Assembly: GCA_944376795.1 (NCBI GenBank)
Contig: CALWDW010000052.1
Location: 1 to 64,000, forward strand
Direction: 5' to 3'
DNA: 64,000 bases
DNA from: an uncultured Christensenellaceae bacterium
GTDB taxonomy: Bacteria; Bacillota; Clostridia; Christensenellales; UMGS416
Both the position numbers and the translations under genes were made by a program. This document shows, piece after piece, positions 1,306 to 60,622 of this stretch. Numbering within the stretch: position 1 is the stretch's first letter; each line of letters opens with the position of its first letter. The notes under the pieces were generated by a model, which saw nothing but the letters and a program-made list of their open reading frames with translations, did no database searches and was not told the origin of the DNA.

Positions 1306-2265
1306 TTAGATCTGCCCCATTGCGCCCAGCATCGCCGCACCGATAATGCCCGCCTCATTGCCAAGGGGAGAAATGGTGATCTCCGCGTGAGGAATATCCT
1401 TATAGAAAATATGCTTCTCCACGTCGGCGCGCACCGCGTCCAGCAGGAAATCCCCCGCTTTGCTTACACCGCCTCCCAGTGCAATGACTTCAGGATCAAA
1501 GATGTTGATCAGCGAGACAATCCCCATAGCCAGGTGATGGACATACCGCTCAAAGATTTCCATGGCAATAATATCGCCGGATTTGGCTGCGTCTAGTACA
1601 ACCTTAGCGGTAACCTTCTCCATATCGCCGCCCACGGCTACATGGATGGCACTTCCGGGATTATCCACCACTGCCTGGCGGCCCATGCGGATCAGCGCCG
1701 TGGCCGAAGTGTAGCGCTCAAAGCAGCCGCGGTTGCCGCACGTGCACATCTCACCGTCGGTAACGGTAATCATATGGCCGATTTCCGCGCCCACATGGTG
1801 ATGGCCGCCCACAATACGGCCGCCCACAATCACGCCGCCGCCGACACCAGTTCCCAGTGTCAGAAGAATCACATCCCGGCGTCCCTTAGCGGAACCCGCC
1901 ACCATTTCAGCAAGCGCCGCCACATTGGCATCGTTGTCAATGGAAACGGGGATCGCGCCCAGATGCTTCTGCAGCTCCGCGCGGACCGGAACAAAATGCC
2001 AATACAGATTATTCGCAAAAACGATTTCGCCCTTCTCGGTGTCCGCTGCGCCGGGAGACCCTACGCCGACGCTCTCGATTTCGGCCATCGTATGTCCGCT
2101 GTCTGCCACAACCTTCTTCACCAGGTCTGCCATATCCTTGAGAATCATCTCATAAGGGCGTCCCACTCCGGTGGGCACGCTGTCCTGGTGAAGGATCTGC
2201 CCCTCCTTATCCACCAACCCGACGGCAATATTGGTACCGCCCAAATCTACGCCAATGTAATACAT
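1306..2265 (-). CDS. glcK: ROK-family glucokinase
   Basis: ATP-dependent kinase that phosphorylates glucose to glucose-6-phosphate in the cytoplasm. The 319 residues have the usual ROK glucokinase length. Visible are the phosphate-binding DLGGTN (7-12), the catalytic Asp in DNDAN (about 112), the GTGVGGG loop (138-144), and the ROK zinc site: EIGH (161-164) plus CTCGNRGC (174-181). The start is preceded by AAGGAGAGG. It lies 24 bases after hprK and follows a HAD hydrolase, so glucose phosphorylation appears co-expressed with the carbon-regulation kinase. Other hexoses cannot be excluded as substrates. Confidence 0.9.
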   Translation of the reverse strand: MYYIGVDLGGTNIAVGLVDKEGQILHQDSVPTGVGRPYEMILKDMADLVKKVVADSGHTMAEIESVGVGSPGAADTEKGEIVFANNLYWHFVPVRAELQKHLGAIPVSIDNDANVAALAEMVAGSAKGRRDVILLTLGTGVGGGVIVGGRIVGGHHHVGAEIGHMITVTDGEMCTCGNRGCFERYTSATALIRMGRQAVVDNPGSAIHVAVGGDMEKVTAKVVLDAAKSGDIIAMEIFERYVHHLAMGIVSLINIFDPEVIALGGGVSKAGDFLLDAVRADVEKHIFYKDIPHAEITISPLGNEAGIIGAAMLGAMGQI

Positions 2266-2289: not shown

Positions 2290-3216
2290 TTACGACTGCT
2301 TTGTCGAAGGCTGGAAAAAGCGCTTCTCCAATTCTTTCGCGGCATTGTAACCCAGCGCCTTTAGCTGGTAATTGTTGGCCGCAACTTCAATAATGATACC
2401 CAAATTCCTGCCTGGACGAACGGGCAGAACAATACGCGGCTTCTTCACGCCCAGGATCGTCGTATACTGGTCCTCTTCTCCCAGGCGATCGTACACCTTC
2501 TCATTATTCCACAGCTCCATCTCGATCACCATATCGATGTTTTTTTGCACCAGGACCGAACCAATCCCATACATTTGCCGGATATCAATGATTCCGATGC
2601 CCCGAATCTCCATAAAATGGCGCACCGACTCCGGTGCGGTGCCAATCAACTGATCCCTATACATACGGCTGATCTCCACCACGTCGTCTGATACCAGCCG
2701 GTGTCCGCGCTTAATCAATTCCAGGGCGGTTTCGCTTTTGCCGATGCCTGACTCCCCGGTGATGAGAATGCCGACACCATTGACATCCACCAGTACGCCG
2801 TGCCGCGTAATGCGTACCGCCAGTATCTGCTCCAGGTAATTGATTGCTTTGATCATCAGCTGGGTGGTAACCAGCGAGGAGCGAAAAATGGGCCGGCTAT
2901 ACTTTTGTGCCAGCTGGTACAGTTCATCCGGAACCGGCAAATTCCGCGAGACAATGACACAGGGAATCGGGTGGGACAGCACCACCTCCAGAGCATGGTA
3001 GCGTTGTGCGGCATCAAGCGCCTCGGTCAGGTAGGTCATCTCTACCTTACCGATTAACTGAATTCTGTCGCTGGCAAAATAATCGTCAAAGCCCGCCAGA
3101 TGCAGGCCCGGGCGGTTTACGTTGGCAGTCCGCAGTTCCAGCTGCTCCATACCACCATCGTAGAGGATTTCCAGCTCCAGATCCATGGCGAACTGCTTGA
3201 TTTTTACGCGGGCCAT
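2290..3216 (-). CDS. hprK: HPr kinase/phosphorylase
   Basis: Bifunctional enzyme that phosphorylates Ser46 of HPr and Crh in response to glycolytic intermediates and removes the phosphate when Pi is high; it is the sensor of Firmicutes carbon catabolite repression. The 308 residues match the family. Seen are a variable N-terminal domain, His139 in RHG, the Walker A motif GESGIGKS (about 154-161), SDDVV (176-180), and the HprK signature EIRGIGIIDI (about 203-212). Its start overlaps the end of the upstream HAD gene by 13 bases, implying translational coupling. A likely partner, a Crh-like protein, is encoded at 51.8-52.1 kb. Confidence 0.96.
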   Translation of the reverse strand: MARVKIKQFAMDLELEILYDGGMEQLELRTANVNRPGLHLAGFDDYFASDRIQLIGKVEMTYLTEALDAAQRYHALEVVLSHPIPCVIVSRNLPVPDELYQLAQKYSRPIFRSSLVTTQLMIKAINYLEQILAVRITRHGVLVDVNGVGILITGESGIGKSETALELIKRGHRLVSDDVVEISRMYRDQLIGTAPESVRHFMEIRGIGIIDIRQMYGIGSVLVQKNIDMVIEMELWNNEKVYDRLGEEDQYTTILGVKKPRIVLPVRPGRNLGIIIEVAANNYQLKALGYNAAKELEKRFFQPSTKQS

Positions 3217-47866: not shown

Positions 47867-48103
47867 CTATCCTTCCAGCCCTGACTCGAGCTGTGCAAAG
47901 CTAGTAAATACTTGCGCTCTCCCCCGGATCTTCATGGCAGCGGTATTCTCGGTAAACTCCGCGACCATCACCTCGCCCGCGTCCAGCTTCTCGGTATGAT
48001 GCAGGCGCGTATCTTTCCCCCGGGTCATGCCAATGACCTGCACGCCATCCTCTAGCGCCTTTATGCAAATATACATGCCGCTCCCGGCCGTATCCTCCGG
48101 CAT
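47867..48103 (-). CDS. mtrB: trp RNA-binding attenuation protein (TRAP)
   Basis: A 78-residue protein aligning without gaps over its core with Bacillus TRAP, which forms an 11-mer ring, binds tryptophan, and then wraps (G/U)AG repeats to shut off trp genes. Conserved are [16 protein letters not shown] (14-29), [11 protein letters not shown] (35-45) and [13 protein letters not shown] (49-61). The RNA-contact residues Lys37, Lys56 and Arg58 of Bacillus correspond to Lys39, Lys58 and Arg60 here; Trp-pocket Thr25 and Thr30 correspond to Thr27 and Thr32, while Ser53 is Ala55. ATG 48103 is taken, after GGAAGGTGATGA. A TGCTATAAT promoter lies upstream (48169-48174). No trp operon is in the window. 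Confidence 0.92.
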
Positions 48104-48168
48104 TTCATCACCTTCCTTCCCGGTATCGATAACGCATACTCTTATCAATCCAGATAGGATTTCTTTTC

Positions 48169-51775: not shown

Positions 51776-51799
51776 GGGCTGACGGCCGCCGTCAGTCCC
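51776..51799 (-). terminator. Hairpin between crh and dnaE
   Basis: GGGCTGACGG (51776-51785) pairs with CCGTCAGTCCC (51789-51799) with one mismatch. The minus strand then reads TTGGTTTA, so it is a modest terminator for the murB-crh operon. Confidence 0.55.
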
Positions 51800-51827: not shown

Positions 51828-52088
51828 TTATTCCGGTAACTGCTGCAAAAACTTCACCAGCTCGTCGATGGCCTCCGCTTCATCCGGACCGGACGCAACC
51901 AGTTCAAACGTACTTCCCCCCATTAGCTTCAGGGAAAGGATCCCCATCATGGATTTGGCATTGACATGATGGGTTCCCTCGTCAATCCAAATCATGGACT
52001 TGTACTTTCCAGAATGCTGGACCATGATGGATACGTTCCGGGCAGACAGGGCCTGGTTTCCATGCAGGGTAATCTGTTTTCGTTTCAT
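51828..52088 (-). CDS. crh: Crh-like HPr-family protein lacking the catalytic histidine
   Basis: An 86-residue HPr-fold protein that aligns position-for-position with Bacillus HPr. Ser46 and its surroundings (VNAKS46MMGILSL) are conserved, so HPr kinase could phosphorylate it. The PTS phosphoryl-carrier residue His15 is Ser15 and Pro18 is Asn18 (ALS15ARN18), so it cannot pass phosphate through the PTS. This is the defining state of Crh, which has Gln15 in Bacillus and acts as a CcpA co-regulator. It overlaps whiA by an ATGA and occupies the same slot as Bacillus crh after rapZ-yvcK-whiA. Ortholog or convergent loss cannot be separated by eye. Confidence 0.85.
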   Translation of the reverse strand: MKRKQITLHGNQALSARNVSIMVQHSGKYKSMIWIDEGTHHVNAKSMMGILSLKLMGGSTFELVASGPDEAEAIDELVKFLQQLPE

Positions 52089-53038
52089 GATTCTCCCTCT
52101 CCTTTACGATATTGGTTAGCCAATTCCACCAGTTTCCGCAGCCGGTGGTTCATTGCAGATTTTGACAGCCCTGGAGCGGCTTCGCTCAGCTCCTGCAGGG
52201 TCGCTTCCGGATAGGCCATCCGCAGTTCTGCCGCCTCTCGAAGCGCGGGACTCAACCGGTGCAGTGCACCTATCCTCTCCAGGCACGCGATGGCTTCCAT
52301 CTGCCGGCCTGCCGCGTCGACGGTCTTGTCCAGGTTGGCATTTTCGCAGTTGACCTGCCGGTTGACTTGGTTGCGCAGGCTCTTTTCGGCCCGCACGTTT
52401 TCCATTGCAAGCACCGCCTCGTGGGCCCCTATGATGCCAAGGAAATCTACAACCTGATCTCCTTCCTTCAAATAGACCACCCATTGTTCTCTGCGGATCG
52501 CCGTGTGCGCGCGCAAGGCATGGGAAGCCAGCACCCGGACTATGAGCTGGGCCATCTCTTCATCCCGCGCAGCGATCTCCAGATGATAGCCGCCGGACGG
52601 ATCGCTGATGGTGCCAGCAGCCAGAAAAGCTCCGCGCAGGAAAGCCGCCTTGCAGCACGGACGATCAATCCTCCCATCGGGAAGCTGCGGCGCTTCCGGG
52701 TCCCAGTCCCCCGAAAGATGAATACCCGCGTCTTCCAGCACACTGGCCGCCGCGCCCGCTTCCATGATATGCAGTTGAAAACTGTTTTTCTTCTGAAGGC
52801 GCCGTCCCTCCCGCATGGTCATCTGACCCTGGACATGGTAGAGCGACCGAATGAGGGCAGCCATCCGGCGGGCTACCTCCAGGCTTTCCGTATCGAAGCG
52901 AAGCCCCAGCTTGCCGCCGGAAAGGATCTCAATGGTCCCGCCCATGCGTACCATGGCCGCCGTCTCTGCACGGCGGCAACAGCGTTTTCCCAGGGACAGC
53001 CCTGCCAATTCCTCCTTAGCGTTGGACGAAAACGACAC
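52085..53038 (-). CDS. whiA: WhiA sporulation/division regulator
   Basis: DNA-binding protein of 317 residues with an N-terminal LAGLIDADG-like fold (EELAGLSLGKRCCRRAETAAM...; RGAFLAAGTISDP, about 137-149) and a C-terminal helix-turn-helix (SPALREAAELRMAYPEATL...MNHRLRKLVELA, about 260-310). In Gram-positives WhiA affects cell division and, in Streptomyces, sporulation; nuclease activity is lost. It lies between yvcK and crh as in Bacillus. Confidence 0.94.
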   Translation of the reverse strand: MSFSSNAKEELAGLSLGKRCCRRAETAAMVRMGGTIEILSGGKLGLRFDTESLEVARRMAALIRSLYHVQGQMTMREGRRLQKKNSFQLHIMEAGAAASVLEDAGIHLSGDWDPEAPQLPDGRIDRPCCKAAFLRGAFLAAGTISDPSGGYHLEIAARDEEMAQLIVRVLASHALRAHTAIRREQWVVYLKEGDQVVDFLGIIGAHEAVLAMENVRAEKSLRNQVNRQVNCENANLDKTVDAAGRQMEAIACLERIGALHRLSPALREAAELRMAYPEATLQELSEAAPGLSKSAMNHRLRKLVELANQYRKGEGES

Positions 53039-53059: not shown

Positions 53060-54340
53060 CTAGCTCTTCCCATGGTAGATATCCAGGATTGCCTGGGCCA
53101 CCGCAGCGGGATGATGCCGGACCTGGCCTGACGAAATATCCAGCAAATCCCTTTCCACCACCCGAACCCCCATGGAACGAATCGCGTCCGCGTCATATGC
53201 AACAGGCACGCTGCGATCCTCCCTGTAGCGATTGCGAACATCCACGGGCATGACCGTATTATGATTGAAAAGAACCACATCCACCATACCGGCGCCGCAG
53301 TGATCATAAAGTGCCTGCAAATGGTCACGTCCCGTATATCCCTCGGTCTCTCCGGGCTGGGTCATCACATTTCCCACCACAATACGGGTTCCCTGTGCCT
53401 CTCGGATGGCGTCGGCTACCCCAGGTACCAGCAAATTGGGCAAAAGCGACGTATAAAGGCTTCCCGGGCCCATGACAATGATATCCGCTTCGCGAATGGC
53501 AGAGAGGACTTCCGGAACCGGCCGGCAGTCGCTGGGATCCAGCCAAACCCTTTGGATCCTAGCCGCACCATTCTTTTGACAGTGGCCAATAGTGGACTCT
53601 CCCCGTAGGACAGTCCCGTCCTCCAGTTCTGCACAGAGGTGGATATTGTCCAGGCTGACGGGCAGTACCCGGCCTACCACGGCCAAAACATTGCTCATCT
53701 GCTTGACGCCTTGCAGGAATCCACCGCAAAGCTGATCCATGGCCACTAGAAGGAGGTTGCCCATACACTGGCCTGCCAGCGCGCCCTCCTTAAAGCGGTG
53801 CTGCAAAAGCTGTTCCATGGCGGGTTCCACCCGAGACAGTGCGGACAGGCAATTGCGGATATCCCCCGGAGGTAAGCTTCCCAGCTCCTCCCGCAGCTGT
53901 CCGGAATTCCCACCGTCATCCGCCACGGTCACCACCGCCGTGATCCGGCTGGTAATGGTCTTCAGCCCCCGCAGCAGGGTGGAGAGTCCCGTGCCACCGC
54001 CAATGGCAACAATCTTGGGACCATGCCCCAGCACCGCATATTGCCGATATACGTCCTTGAGCTTTACATTGGTCCCCAATCCGCTGGCCGCTTGAATGCG
54101 GAAAAGCCGGTACGCTATTACGACAATACCTACAATAAAGATGAACATCCCTGCCGTCAGCAAGATCAGCGGCAAGCCATACCGTCGGAGCACCGCGCTG
54201 GTATTGATGGCCTCCAGCACCCAGATGCCTCCCGCCAGCGCAATCATAAGCCCTGCCAGCGCCACAGCCATTAGGCTCAGCGTTGTGCGCCCTAGGCTGT
54301 ACCAATGTCTTTGCTTTCGCAGTCGCTTGCGCCCCGTCAT
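53060..54340 (-). CDS. yvcK: YvcK/MgfK-type gluconeogenesis factor (CofD family)
   Basis: A 426-residue protein with two N-terminal membrane segments (about 20-45 and 50-75), then a CofD/UPF0052 domain: AIGGGTGLSTLLRGLK (about 118-133), TVADDGGNSGQLREELG (about 142-158), GNLLLVAM, and IVMGPGSLYTSLLPN. YvcK binds UDP-GlcNAc and is needed for growth on gluconeogenic carbon and for cell-wall balance. Bacillus YvcK has no membrane anchor; the extra N-terminus, found in other Clostridia and actinobacteria-like forms, would tether it to the membrane. Its start overlaps rapZ by four bases. Confidence 0.93.
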   Translation of the reverse strand: MTGRKRLRKQRHWYSLGRTTLSLMAVALAGLMIALAGGIWVLEAINTSAVLRRYGLPLILLTAGMFIFIVGIVVIAYRLFRIQAASGLGTNVKLKDVYRQYAVLGHGPKIVAIGGGTGLSTLLRGLKTITSRITAVVTVADDGGNSGQLREELGSLPPGDIRNCLSALSRVEPAMEQLLQHRFKEGALAGQCMGNLLLVAMDQLCGGFLQGVKQMSNVLAVVGRVLPVSLDNIHLCAELEDGTVLRGESTIGHCQKNGAARIQRVWLDPSDCRPVPEVLSAIREADIIVMGPGSLYTSLLPNLLVPGVADAIREAQGTRIVVGNVMTQPGETEGYTGRDHLQALYDHCGAGMVDVVLFNHNTVMPVDVRNRYREDRSVPVAYDADAIRSMGVRVVERDLLDISSGQVRHHPAAVAQAILDIYHGKS

Positions 54341-55218
54341 GTACGCTTTCCTTCCGTCTGCATGTCTCGGTGATCCAGGATGCAGCGATACCCCGCCTCT
54401 GTCAGCGCCTTTGCCAAGGCATCGGCGATAACTACCGAGCGGTGCATGCCGCCCGTACAGCCAATACCAATGATCAGCTGCCCTTTCCCCTCCTGGATAT
54501 ACTCGGGAATCAAGTACAGCATCATATCTTGAAGCTTTTCCAGAAAGATCTTCGTCTGCTCAAAACCCATTACGTAGTCCCGAACCTCGGCGTCCAGCCC
54601 AGTATGGCGCTTCAATCGGTCTACATAAAACGGGTTATTGATGAACCGTACGTCAAACACCAGATCGGCATCCTGTAGGATGCCATACTTAAACCCAAAG
54701 GAGACCACGTGGATCGTAAAGCCACTGCCTGTCTCCTGATCTTGAAAGAGGGCGAAAAGCTTGGCGCGAAGCTGGGACGGCTTTAATTCACTGGTGTCGA
54801 TGGTATAGTTGGCGTTTTCCCGGATACGCTGGAGGATGGAGCGCTCCTCCATCAGGCTCTCGGTTACCGTGCCCGCCTTGGCAAGAGGATGAACCCGGCG
54901 GCTCTCCTTAAAGCGGTTAATCAGCACACGGTCGCTGGCGTCCAGAAAGAGGATTTCATAGCGAACATTGTACTGCCGGAGGTTATAGAGCGCGCTGTAA
55001 ATGCTGTCAAAGAATTCTCCACCCCGTATATCCACCCCAATGGCGATTTTATCGTAGCTGGCCTTTTTCTCTTCACTTTGCTTGGTAAAAAGCCCTACAA
55101 ACGTCTCAATCAGCATGGGGGGAAGGTTGTCCACGCAGAAATACCCCATATCCTCCATGCAGTTCAACGCGACAGACTTCCCGGCACCGGAAAGCCCGGA
55201 GATAATCACAAGACGCAT
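54337..55218 (-). CDS. rapZ: RapZ/YvcJ nucleotide-binding protein
   Basis: P-loop protein of 293 residues. Walker A is GLSGAGKS (8-15), then CMEDMGYFCVDNLPP (20-34). The C-terminal half carries GFKYG, DVRFINNPFYVDRLK and CTGGMHRSV (about 255-263). In E. coli RapZ is an RNA-binding adapter controlling GlcN-6-P synthase; in Bacillus YvcJ is a GTPase linked to competence. It follows murB by about ten bases. Confidence 0.95.
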   Translation of the reverse strand: MRLVIISGLSGAGKSVALNCMEDMGYFCVDNLPPMLIETFVGLFTKQSEEKKASYDKIAIGVDIRGGEFFDSIYSALYNLRQYNVRYEILFLDASDRVLINRFKESRRVHPLAKAGTVTESLMEERSILQRIRENANYTIDTSELKPSQLRAKLFALFQDQETGSGFTIHVVSFGFKYGILQDADLVFDVRFINNPFYVDRLKRHTGLDAEVRDYVMGFEQTKIFLEKLQDMMLYLIPEYIQEGKGQLIIGIGCTGGMHRSVVIADALAKALTEAGYRCILDHRDMQTEGKRT

Positions 55219-55227
55219 ACCTTCCTC

Positions 55228-56154
55228 CTACGCAAGCGGCGCTTCTTCGCCTACCACTCGAATCTCCAGTTCCAAGCGGACCCCCGCGTGGGCGTATACC
55301 CGATCCCGAACCATATCAATCAGCTGCAGAAGCTGGGCTGCGGTGGCCTCCCCCAGGTTGACGATAAAGCCGGCGTGCTTGGGCGATACCTGGGCGTCGC
55401 CGACGCGGCAGCCCTTCAACCCGGCTTCTTCGATCAGCGCCGCGGCAAAATAGCCGGCGGGACGCTTGAAAACGCTGCCGCAGCTAGGATATTCCAGGGG
55501 CTGCTTCTCTCGCCGCCGCTTTGCCAATTCATCCATACGGGCACGGATCTCGGCCTGTGGAGCCCGACGCAGTGCCAACCGAACCCCGGTAACAATCCAG
55601 CCTTCCTCCATAGCCCGGCTGTGGCGGTAGCCAAAGTCCATATCCTGGGCCGAAACCCAGAAGAGGCCGCCGTCCCGCGGCAATACCTGTACCCGCTCCA
55701 CGATATCCTTCATCTCGCCGCCGTATGCGCCGGCATTGATAGCTGTCCCGCCTCCTACGGTGCCTGGAATCCCACTGACGCACTCCATGCCCGACAAGGA
55801 AGCATGGCAAGCGAAATTCGCCGCGCGGGAAAGCAACATTCCACCCGAAACCTCCATGGTTTCCCCTTCACATCGTGGGATGGAGCCAGAATCCACCCAC
55901 TGCAGCACCGCCCCACGATAGCCGCCGTCCCGAAAAAGGATATTGCTGGCATTCCCCATCACAAGATAGGGTACGCCCTCTTTCCGACACACCGACACCG
56001 CGGCAGCCAATTCCTGCGCCGTCTGCAAAGACAGGTAACAGTCCGCTTTTCCCCCTGCCCGCATCGAGGTATGATACCGCATGGGCTCATCCCGCTTAGC
56101 GGCAATATGGGGAAGCGCCTGCGTCATGGCCTCCCAAAATGATTCCTTTAACAT
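55228..56154 (-). CDS. murB: UDP-N-acetylenolpyruvoylglucosamine reductase
   Basis: FAD enzyme of 308 residues making UDP-MurNAc in the cytoplasm. FAD-binding signatures are VMGNASNILFRDGGYRG (about 61-77) and VSGIPGTVGGGTAINAGAYGG (about 106-126). The catalytic Ser lies in PSCGSVFKRP (about 208-217), and GLKGCRVGDAQVSPKHAGFIVN is typical of the type IIb form without the extra loop. It is the first gene of the murB-rapZ-yvcK-whiA-crh operon. Confidence 0.96.
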   Translation of the reverse strand: MLKESFWEAMTQALPHIAAKRDEPMRYHTSMRAGGKADCYLSLQTAQELAAAVSVCRKEGVPYLVMGNASNILFRDGGYRGAVLQWVDSGSIPRCEGETMEVSGGMLLSRAANFACHASLSGMECVSGIPGTVGGGTAINAGAYGGEMKDIVERVQVLPRDGGLFWVSAQDMDFGYRHSRAMEEGWIVTGVRLALRRAPQAEIRARMDELAKRRREKQPLEYPSCGSVFKRPAGYFAAALIEEAGLKGCRVGDAQVSPKHAGFIVNLGEATAAQLLQLIDMVRDRVYAHAGVRLELEIRVVGEEAPLA

Positions 56155-56190: not shown

Positions 56191-56219
56191 ATTGTACATG
56201 ATTTCCAGAAAATTATCAA
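56191..56219 (-). promoter_or_regulatory. sigma-A promoter of the murB-rapZ-yvcK-whiA-crh operon
   Basis: Minus-strand TTGATA (56219-56214), a 17-base spacer and TACAAT (56196-56191), 37 bases before murB and immediately after the stop of the solute-binding-like gene. Confidence 0.85.
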
Positions 56220-58623: not shown

Positions 58624-59544
58624 TTGATTTCCAACGAATTGAACATTGCCCTGGTTCGCAAGGCCGTATCCGGCATTCTTGAAAAGCACGCAACGTTGGA
58701 ACGCGTTACCGAAGGATCATCCACATACGTCTATAGAGTTCGCGAAAAGCACCGAATCCTTTACCTGCGAATACTACCTGAGGATGCCAGCTTTGCCATC
58801 GAGGTCCACGTTCACAAGCTATTGCAGCTGCGAGGCCTCCACGTGCCCCAGGTCCTCTACTATGAGGAACGAAATCCGCTTCTGGGGCTGTCTCTCATGC
58901 TCACCGAAGAGATCCCCGGAAGCCCCGTGCGCCCGCCGGCGAACCCAGAGGTTTTTCGCGCAGCCGGACGGGAAATTGCCATCGTCCATTCCATCCCCGT
59001 AACCGGCTTTGGCTGGATCGACCGGAACCACCCTACATCTCTATATGGTGTATCCCCGTCCTTTGAAGCCTTTTATGCCCAAGATATCGACCACGGAATG
59101 GCCTGCCTCACCGGGGCAGGAATCTGCCGCTCTGTACGGGATTGGATCCACGGCGAACTGGAAAGTGTTTTCACGGCCCTGCAGACCCAGAGCGCCCGTC
59201 TGGTACACGGTGACTTCGATATCTCCCACATCTTTCAGCTGGGCGGAAACTACACAGGGCTGATCGATTTTGGGGAAATCATGGGGAACGCTCCGCTTTA
59301 TGATCTGGCCCTCTTTCGGTTTTACTCCGATCTTTCGGAAGACGAAAGCGGATTTTCATCCCTGGTGGAGGGCTATCACGAAATCACGCCCCTATCCTTA
59401 CAAGACCTTCGCACCATTGATGCCATAGCCCTATTTTTTGGCGTATGGAAATATGGAAAAAAGCAGGGAGTAAATCCTGCTTTTGCGAATTTTCTGCTGG
59501 AGCGCGTACTCCGGCAGCATGAAAGGCTCACTGCGCCGAGCTAG
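58624..59544 (+). CDS. Aminoglycoside-phosphotransferase-fold kinase, TTG start
   Basis: A 306-residue APH/choline-kinase-fold protein. The catalytic loop is VHGDFDISHIF, with HGD kept and the distal Asn replaced by His, and the metal loop is LIDFGEIMGNAPLYDLALF. The start is TTG 58624, with AGGAGG seven bases upstream; the in-frame ATG at 58486 lies in the preceding terminator and before the promoter's -10. Targets of this fold include antibiotics, choline, sugars and methylthioribose; nothing here selects one. Its stop shares a CTAG with the opposing gene. Confidence 0.82.
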   Translation: MISNELNIALVRKAVSGILEKHATLERVTEGSSTYVYRVREKHRILYLRILPEDASFAIEVHVHKLLQLRGLHVPQVLYYEERNPLLGLSLMLTEEIPGSPVRPPANPEVFRAAGREIAIVHSIPVTGFGWIDRNHPTSLYGVSPSFEAFYAQDIDHGMACLTGAGICRSVRDWIHGELESVFTALQTQSARLVHGDFDISHIFQLGGNYTGLIDFGEIMGNAPLYDLALFRFYSDLSEDESGFSSLVEGYHEITPLSLQDLRTIDAIALFFGVWKYGKKQGVNPAFANFLLERVLRQHERLTAPS

Positions 59545-60500
59545 GACAGGCGATCCTCTATTACCAAAACCTGGAGCGCGTCGGCAGTCCTTCCTCGGCT
59601 GAGAATGAAGGCCGTACACATAACGCCCCTCTGTACCTGCACGTAGAAAGAGAGCAGCGCCTGCGTCGCATCGATAACCGAAGCGTCCGCAATGCCCAGT
59701 GTTTCAATGTCTTCATCCCGCGGAATCGGCGTAAAATCGGTTTCAGCCAGATAGAACTGGTAGCTGCCCAGACGGATGCGCTTGGCTGCCGTAACTTCCT
59801 TGTAGCGGACATCTCCAAAGACTACGCGCCCATCCCGCAACAGCACATCCAGTGGATTGCTGTTGTACGCCAGATTTGCAACGCGGAAGCAGGACATGAC
59901 GTTAGTTCGCTGGCAAGGCGTATCAGAAATCTGGATCAAATCCAGGCCGCTGAGCGTACGGATGATGGCCAAGGTCGCCGATTCATTGGCGCGGATGGGC
60001 ATAGTCTTTTGCAGATAAATATAGCCATCATACCCTGTCACGGTCACTTTTTGGTACCCGCTGGCTATACGGCTATAGGGCGTAATGGAGGCAAAGGAAA
60101 GCCCATTGGCCACAAGCCGATTTTGGACATACACCCGGAAGGACGGATAGTCATTGGCGGCATTCAAAAACCTTACATTCCCCGTACGTGCCGTTCCACA
60201 AGTATAACAGGGCGGCAGCGTTGGTCCAGGCGCCACCGGACCTCCCTCTCCTGGGTTGGGCAGCGGGATCACCGGTACGCCTCCGTCCCCCGCGTCCATC
60301 GGGCCTCCCTCTCCCGGGTTTGGCAGCGGGATCACCGGTACGCCTCCGTCCCCCGCGTCCACGGGTCCTCCCTCTCCTGGGTTGGGCAGCGGGATCACCG
60401 GTACGCCTCCGTCCCCCGCGTCCACCGGGCCTCCTTCTCCCAGGTTCGGCAATGGGATTACTGGTACGGCTCCGTCTCGGCTGTCTTGGTTTACACGCAT
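59541..60500 (-). CDS. DUF4397 protein with N-terminal Pro/Gly tandem repeats
   Basis: About 319 residues. The first ~100 comprise four near-identical 21-residue repeats rich in Gly, Pro, Asp and Val (GGVPVIPLPNPGEGGPVDA...). These are followed by a CYTCGTA segment and a DUF4397 region (VRFLNAANDYPSFRVYVQNR..., about 125-235), a beta-sandwich domain common in surface proteins. No signal peptide or anchor is seen. ATG 60500 follows AAGGAG by ten bases. The repeat spacer plus adhesion-like domain suggests a structural or surface (possibly spore) protein, which is inference. Confidence 0.75.
   Translation of the reverse strand: MRVNQDSRDGAVPVIPLPNLGEGGPVDAGDGGVPVIPLPNPGEGGPVDAGDGGVPVIPLPNPGEGGPMDAGDGGVPVIPLPNPGEGGPVAPGPTLPPCYTCGTARTGNVRFLNAANDYPSFRVYVQNRLVANGLSFASITPYSRIASGYQKVTVTGYDGYIYLQKTMPIRANESATLAIIRTLSGLDLIQISDTPCQRTNVMSCFRVANLAYNSNPLDVLLRDGRVVFGDVRYKEVTAAKRIRLGSYQFYLAETDFTPIPRDEDIETLGIADASVIDATQALLSFYVQVQRGVMCTAFILSRGRTADALQVLVIEDRLS
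60237..60490. repeat. 63-bp coding tandem repeats, about four copies
   Basis: Units of 63 bp (21 codons) start near 60245, 60308, 60371 and 60434 inside the DUF4397 gene. The inner copies differ by only a few bases, and the outermost is the most diverged. The exact multiple of three allows copy-number change without frameshift. Confidence 0.9.
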
Positions 60501-60622
60501 ATTCCCCGATCTCCTTTCTATCCTGTAAAAGCATTGTATGGCAAAGAAAGGATTTCTGTGCATGTGCCAACTCCGTCCCACAGCCAAGTACCGTTGAGCC
60601 GGGAGCCGCACCGCATTTCTGC

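Follow-up and report, generated by a model that had tools for sequence, protein, structure and literature searches.

A Crh-like protein with serine at position 15, encoded after whiA in a genome without a detected phosphotransferase system

HprK and HPr are usually viewed as parts of the regulation of the phosphotransferase system (PTS). Crh of Bacillus subtilis, a relative of HPr, has a second known target beside CcpA, namely MgsA, which it controls in that organism (PMC9631020). Clostridium (Ruminiclostridium) cellulolyticum is said to lack both an HPr ortholog and a cognate EII; its Crh-like protein, Ccel_0806, was proposed to act as a signal to LacI proteins that resemble CcpA (PMC3656788). 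HPr and Crh occur together in Thermoanaerobacterium saccharolyticum (PMC3526391), and in a 2008 survey of 222 genomes HPr without EI was found in a few species only (PMC2405797). Given precedents such as that of C. cellulolyticum, PTS-free Crh signalling is already a known idea. What is new here is the order-wide pattern, the variety of residue 15, a second paralog that has only the serine site, and the absence of the usual targets.

The gene under study lies in a window (the whole stretch of DNA that was analysed) of 64,000 nucleotides, which contains the following features.

1306-2265, minus strand: ROK-family glucokinase, directly after hprK (TIGR00744, 281.1 bits, cut-off 260)
2290-3216, minus strand: hprK, HPr(Ser) kinase/phosphorylase with the P-loop GESGIGKS (TIGR00679, 363.6 bits, cut-off 240)
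51779-51795, minus strand: terminator-like hairpin 3' of the Crh-like gene, before dnaE (consensus match alone)
51828-52088, minus strand: Crh-like HPr-fold protein of 86 amino acids with Ser15, Arg17, Asn18 and Ser46; the reading frame is intact
52085-53038, minus strand: whiA (TIGR00647, 255.7 bits)
53060-54340, minus strand: yvcK, UDP-GlcNAc-binding (TIGR01826, 365.8 bits)
54337-55218, minus strand: rapZ (NF003828, 344.8 bits)
55228-56154, minus strand: murB (NF010480, 338.7 bits)
56191-56219, minus strand: promoter-like site TTGATA-17-TACAAT upstream of murB (consensus match alone)

An earlier note on this DNA had placed a Crh-like gene at 51828-52088, after murB-rapZ-yvcK-whiA, the position of crh in Bacillus. 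Both the coordinates and the locus were borne out, with the minus strand as the coding strand. The gene has a clear ribosome-binding site (AAAGGAG) and an ATG start, and this start overlaps the 3' end of whiA by 4 bp. Downstream are dnaE, mtrB and pfkA; the mtrB-like (TRAP) gene between dnaE and pfkA (47867-48148, minus strand) scores 115.5 bits, just under the cut-off of 117. Promoter-like and terminator-like sites are no more numerous in this region than chance would give, and an Rfam search of the window gave zero matches. The window also encodes, at 59541-60611 on the minus strand, a protein in which a unit of about 21 residues is repeated in tandem (PVIPLPNPGEGGPVDAGDGG).

The alignment of the 86-residue product (MKRKQITLHGNQALSARNVSIMVQ...HVNAKSMMGILSL...) with Crh and HPr of B. 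subtilis is free of gaps up to Ser46. As the earlier note had read it, Ser15 stands in place of His15 and Asn18 in place of Pro18, and Ser46 is retained; Arg17 is retained as well. An independent search of a structure database gives Bacillus Crh in the same register. Ser46 is flanked as NAKSMMG and is invariant in relatives. The match to the HPr family is far above chance: Pfam PF00381 gives 69.2 bits, its cut-off being 23. Among NCBIfam models, the one for Crh (NF010354) scores highest at 69.1 bits, with TIGR01003 second at 55.4 bits. Since the NF010354 cut-off of 123 is missed by this protein, and also by a Gln15 relative (93.3 bits), we call the protein Crh-like and do not place it in NF010354. 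Its AlphaFold model (pLDDT 91.7) has the HPr fold; in Foldseek it matches solved structures of HPr, and Crh bound to CcpA, with TM scores of about 0.9. The fold matches include 7ff5, a phosphocarrier structure from R. cellulolyticum. In sequence, the solved structures closest to the protein are those of Thermoanaerobacter HPr and Bacillus Crh.

The protein has the fold and the Ser46 site of HPr (PtsH), but it lacks His15 in the active-site loop, having Ser15 instead, and Pro18, and no EI partner was found. With B. subtilis Crh it shares the locus, the fold, the replacement of His15, which bars phosphorylation by EI, Arg17 and Ser46 with its flanks, and the presence of HprK in the genome. It differs from that protein in having Ser15 and Asn18 rather than Gln15 and Pro18, in its identity of only 31% and in falling under the Crh model cut-off, and searches of its genome found neither a PTS nor MgsA, nor any CcpA with the residues that contact HPr.

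The source genome is a draft of 2.68 Mb in 62 contigs that is 95% complete, and it was searched one family at a time. HprK has intact motifs in an alignment with the solved HprKs 1ko7 and 1jb1, and the ROK glucokinase beside it probably allows glucose to be phosphorylated without the PTS. Searches of this 95% complete draft for the EI N-domain (PF05524) and for EIIC gave no match, and they yielded no His15 HPr, the only two HPr-family matches being the whiA-adjacent protein and a short protein on another contig (C41). Because the genome is a draft, these absences fall short of proof. However, EI is also missing from 6/7 other genomes of the family, which makes a gap in a single assembly a poor explanation. 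The draft state alone leaves room for a continuing PTS role, in which the searches would have missed an EI and a different loop residue would be phosphorylated, and the lack of EI in most genomes of the family and of any EI or EIIC match in this one makes such a role extremely improbable. We know of no EI phosphotransfer to a serine at position 15; a PTS role through Ser15 was rejected, as no EI was found.

The loss of His15, the retention of Ser46 and the failure to find other PTS components point most readily to a pure carbon-status signal. We therefore think it likely that the protein serves in signalling, as Crh does, rather than as a phosphocarrier, and that it conveys an HprK-dependent, PTS-independent signal of carbon status. 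Sugars would enter by non-PTS routes, and kinases, for example the ROK glucokinase next to hprK, would phosphorylate them. HprK would phosphorylate Ser46 when glycolytic intermediates are high and take the phosphate off when they are low, and the free and phosphorylated forms may bind different partners. A classical CcpA is an improbable partner in the source genome, and so is MgsA. Ser15 itself most likely has no catalytic role, its loop having perhaps drifted after an earlier Gln15 state. The earlier suggestion of a PTS-independent sensor formed with hprK thus fits the gene content, with HprK present and no PTS found in the 95% complete draft.

Residue 15 was tabulated at the whiA-adjacent locus in 61 genomes of one order, comprising the source genome and 60 relatives. 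An HPr-like gene adjoins whiA in 33 of these, and all 33 copies have Ser46 and none has His15. Residue 15 is Gln in 7 copies, Arg in 6, Lys in 3, Leu in 2 (L008 has Leu), Asp in 2, and Ser, Ala and Asn in one each; the loop of the other 10 is shortened or unalignable. By comparison, His15 is present in 11/11 EI-adjacent HPrs of order genomes. The earlier note had held that His15 in close relatives at this locus would speak against its reading; the six other whiA-adjacent copies of the same family have Gln15 (five) or Ala15 (one), which leaves that reading standing.

Outside the order, 61 whiA-adjacent copies all have Ser46, and residue 15 is His in 22, Gln in 21, Glu in 7, Asp in 3 and Asn in 3, with single others. 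His15 occurs at the locus in Paenibacillus, Thermoactinomycetaceae, Anaerosolibacter and Pseudobacteroides. Gln15, the residue with which the earlier note had described Crh as best known from bacilli, is found in B. subtilis Crh but is not universal at the locus in Bacilli, given the His15 of Paenibacillus and Thermoactinomycetaceae. A class survey gave His15 in 10 of 30 whiA-adjacent copies, which were chosen by their score against an alignment (A4), so that its proportions are not frequencies. In an unrelated family (f75), the whiA-adjacent HPr-like proteins include an independent Ser15 (L217, genome G204) and a Thr15 (L220, genome G120). In three loci of another family of the same class outside the order (f78; L260, L292 and L297), an HPr-like gene with Glu15 lies directly before a diverged EI-like reading frame that scores 39-45 bits to the EI N-terminal query, and the whiA-adjacent HPr of the same genomes has His15. 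These three Glu15 HPrs were left out of the 11 EI-adjacent HPrs.

Since the locus is often His15 elsewhere in Bacillota, residue 15 must have switched repeatedly. On a WhiA tree, at least 7 changes are needed between His and non-His and at least 30 among all states of the residue, counts from which the direction of change cannot be read. Of the two origins that had been suggested for Ser15, repeated loss of His15 at the locus accords with these changes, whereas an old Ser15 state does not accord with the tree, in which the protein is sister to the Ala15 protein (SH-aLRT 97) and nested among the Gln15 members of its own family. Most simply, Ser15 arose late, within the family, and followed Gln15.

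The whiA-adjacent and EI-adjacent copies conserve opposite sites of HPr. The whiA-adjacent proteins that could be aligned, 23 in number, have a mean pairwise identity of 0.47 for residues 12-18, 0.16 for position 15 and 0.86 for residues 42-53, the Ser46 helix. Among the EI-adjacent HPrs it is 0.82 for residues 12-18 and 0.33 for residues 42-53, the latter figure being blurred by an insertion in one row.

If the protein is a signal, its output is a matter of partners. One interpretation is that it acts as an ordinary CcpA co-repressor, its Ser46-phosphorylated form binding a LacI/GalR protein to repress catabolic genes as in Bacillus. The retained Arg17 and Ser46 surface is consistent with this, as are the two LacI-type proteins of the source genome, the better of which has CcpA as its top match in a search of solved structures (32% identity). 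Tyr295 and Arg303 of CcpA are needed to hold HPr-Ser-P, however, and the CcpA segment at positions 295-303, YDIGAVAMR, is replaced by QLIAQSAAQ and EEIGRRAVE in these two proteins, so that both residues are missing from both. Furthermore, the CcpA equivalog cut-off was reached by 0/61 order genomes, and 7 order genomes that have HprK and a whiA-adjacent protein showed no CcpA-like match at all. We therefore regard the CcpA co-repressor interpretation as unlikely, and a CcpA output is not supported. The source genome resembles C. cellulolyticum in having a Crh-like protein and no detected PTS phosphocarrier. The output proposed for Ccel_0806 is through LacI-type CcpA homologues, whereas the source genome has only two LacI proteins, both without the CcpA contact residues.

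MgsA was not found in the source genome either and was dropped as a present target there. It may bear on the history of the loop in relatives, in which the free protein would restrain MgsA as B. subtilis Crh does; that contact would maintain the Gln15-Ser-Arg-Pro loop, which would drift to Ser/Asn or Ala/Leu after the loss of MgsA. Within the family, MgsA is present in all five Gln15 genomes and absent from the Ser15 and Ala15 genomes. Across the order, MgsA is present in the genomes of 7/10 copies that have an Arg17-Pro18 loop, compared to 4/23 copies without the loop (Fisher 0.006), but the test is post hoc and ignores kinship, and five of the seven positives belong to one family. Three genomes (G013, G033 and G056) also retain the loop without MgsA. 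We consider this contact doubtful; it concerns relatives and not the present function, and it is compatible with the carbon-status signal proposed for the protein.

A second candidate substrate of HprK, which could be the main one, is the short Ser-only protein on C41 (C41:18187-18408; L002 1396-1698; L176 5119-5421). Proteins of this type, found in 26 other order genomes as well, have 75-83 amino acids, no His loop and a near-invariant VDAKSILGIFSL; the C41 protein scores 23.5 bits with PF00381, barely above the cut-off of 23. Conceivably the short protein is the true substrate and the Crh-like gene is a relaxed paralog that is being lost. In line with such a loss, the loop is more degraded than in Gln15 relatives, and one genome of the same family (G006) lacks the whiA-adjacent copy yet retains HprK and the short paralog. 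Nevertheless, the intact reading frame with its good ribosome-binding site and whiA overlap, the retained invariant positions of the Ser46 helix and the conserved gene order around the gene all argue against decay, which we judge quite improbable.

At least one Ser46-bearing HPr-like gene is present in 46/47 order genomes with HprK, compared to 1/14 without it (Fisher 3e-11). This value overstates the association because the genomes are related and independent pairs are few: among phylogenetically independent pairs, 4 agree, 0 oppose and 1 is tied, with which a sign test cannot reach 0.05. HprK and EI show no association across the 61 genomes (p 0.43), and EI is absent from 37/47 genomes with HprK. 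We tentatively suggest, as a possibility for the order as a whole, that HprK signalling persisted after the PTS, and in some lineages CcpA as well, had been lost, and that the substrates of HprK are one or two HPr-like proteins with only the serine site, the whiA-adjacent one and the short one without a His loop, which would control a CcpA-independent target. If this is true, the Ser46 switch would be a stand-alone carbon sensor, kept in nearly all HprK-containing genomes of the order, most of which lack EI. Genomes with neither a PTS nor a recognisable CcpA would allow a direct search for other targets, and the label "HPr family phosphocarrier protein" would mislead for many genes of PTS-less bacteria. 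The sole genome without HprK that has a Ser46-bearing HPr-like gene (G004) has a congener with HprK (G007). Conversely, one genome with EI (G017, L024) lacks HprK and has an EI-adjacent His15 HPr with Leu46, the serine apparently having been lost together with its kinase.
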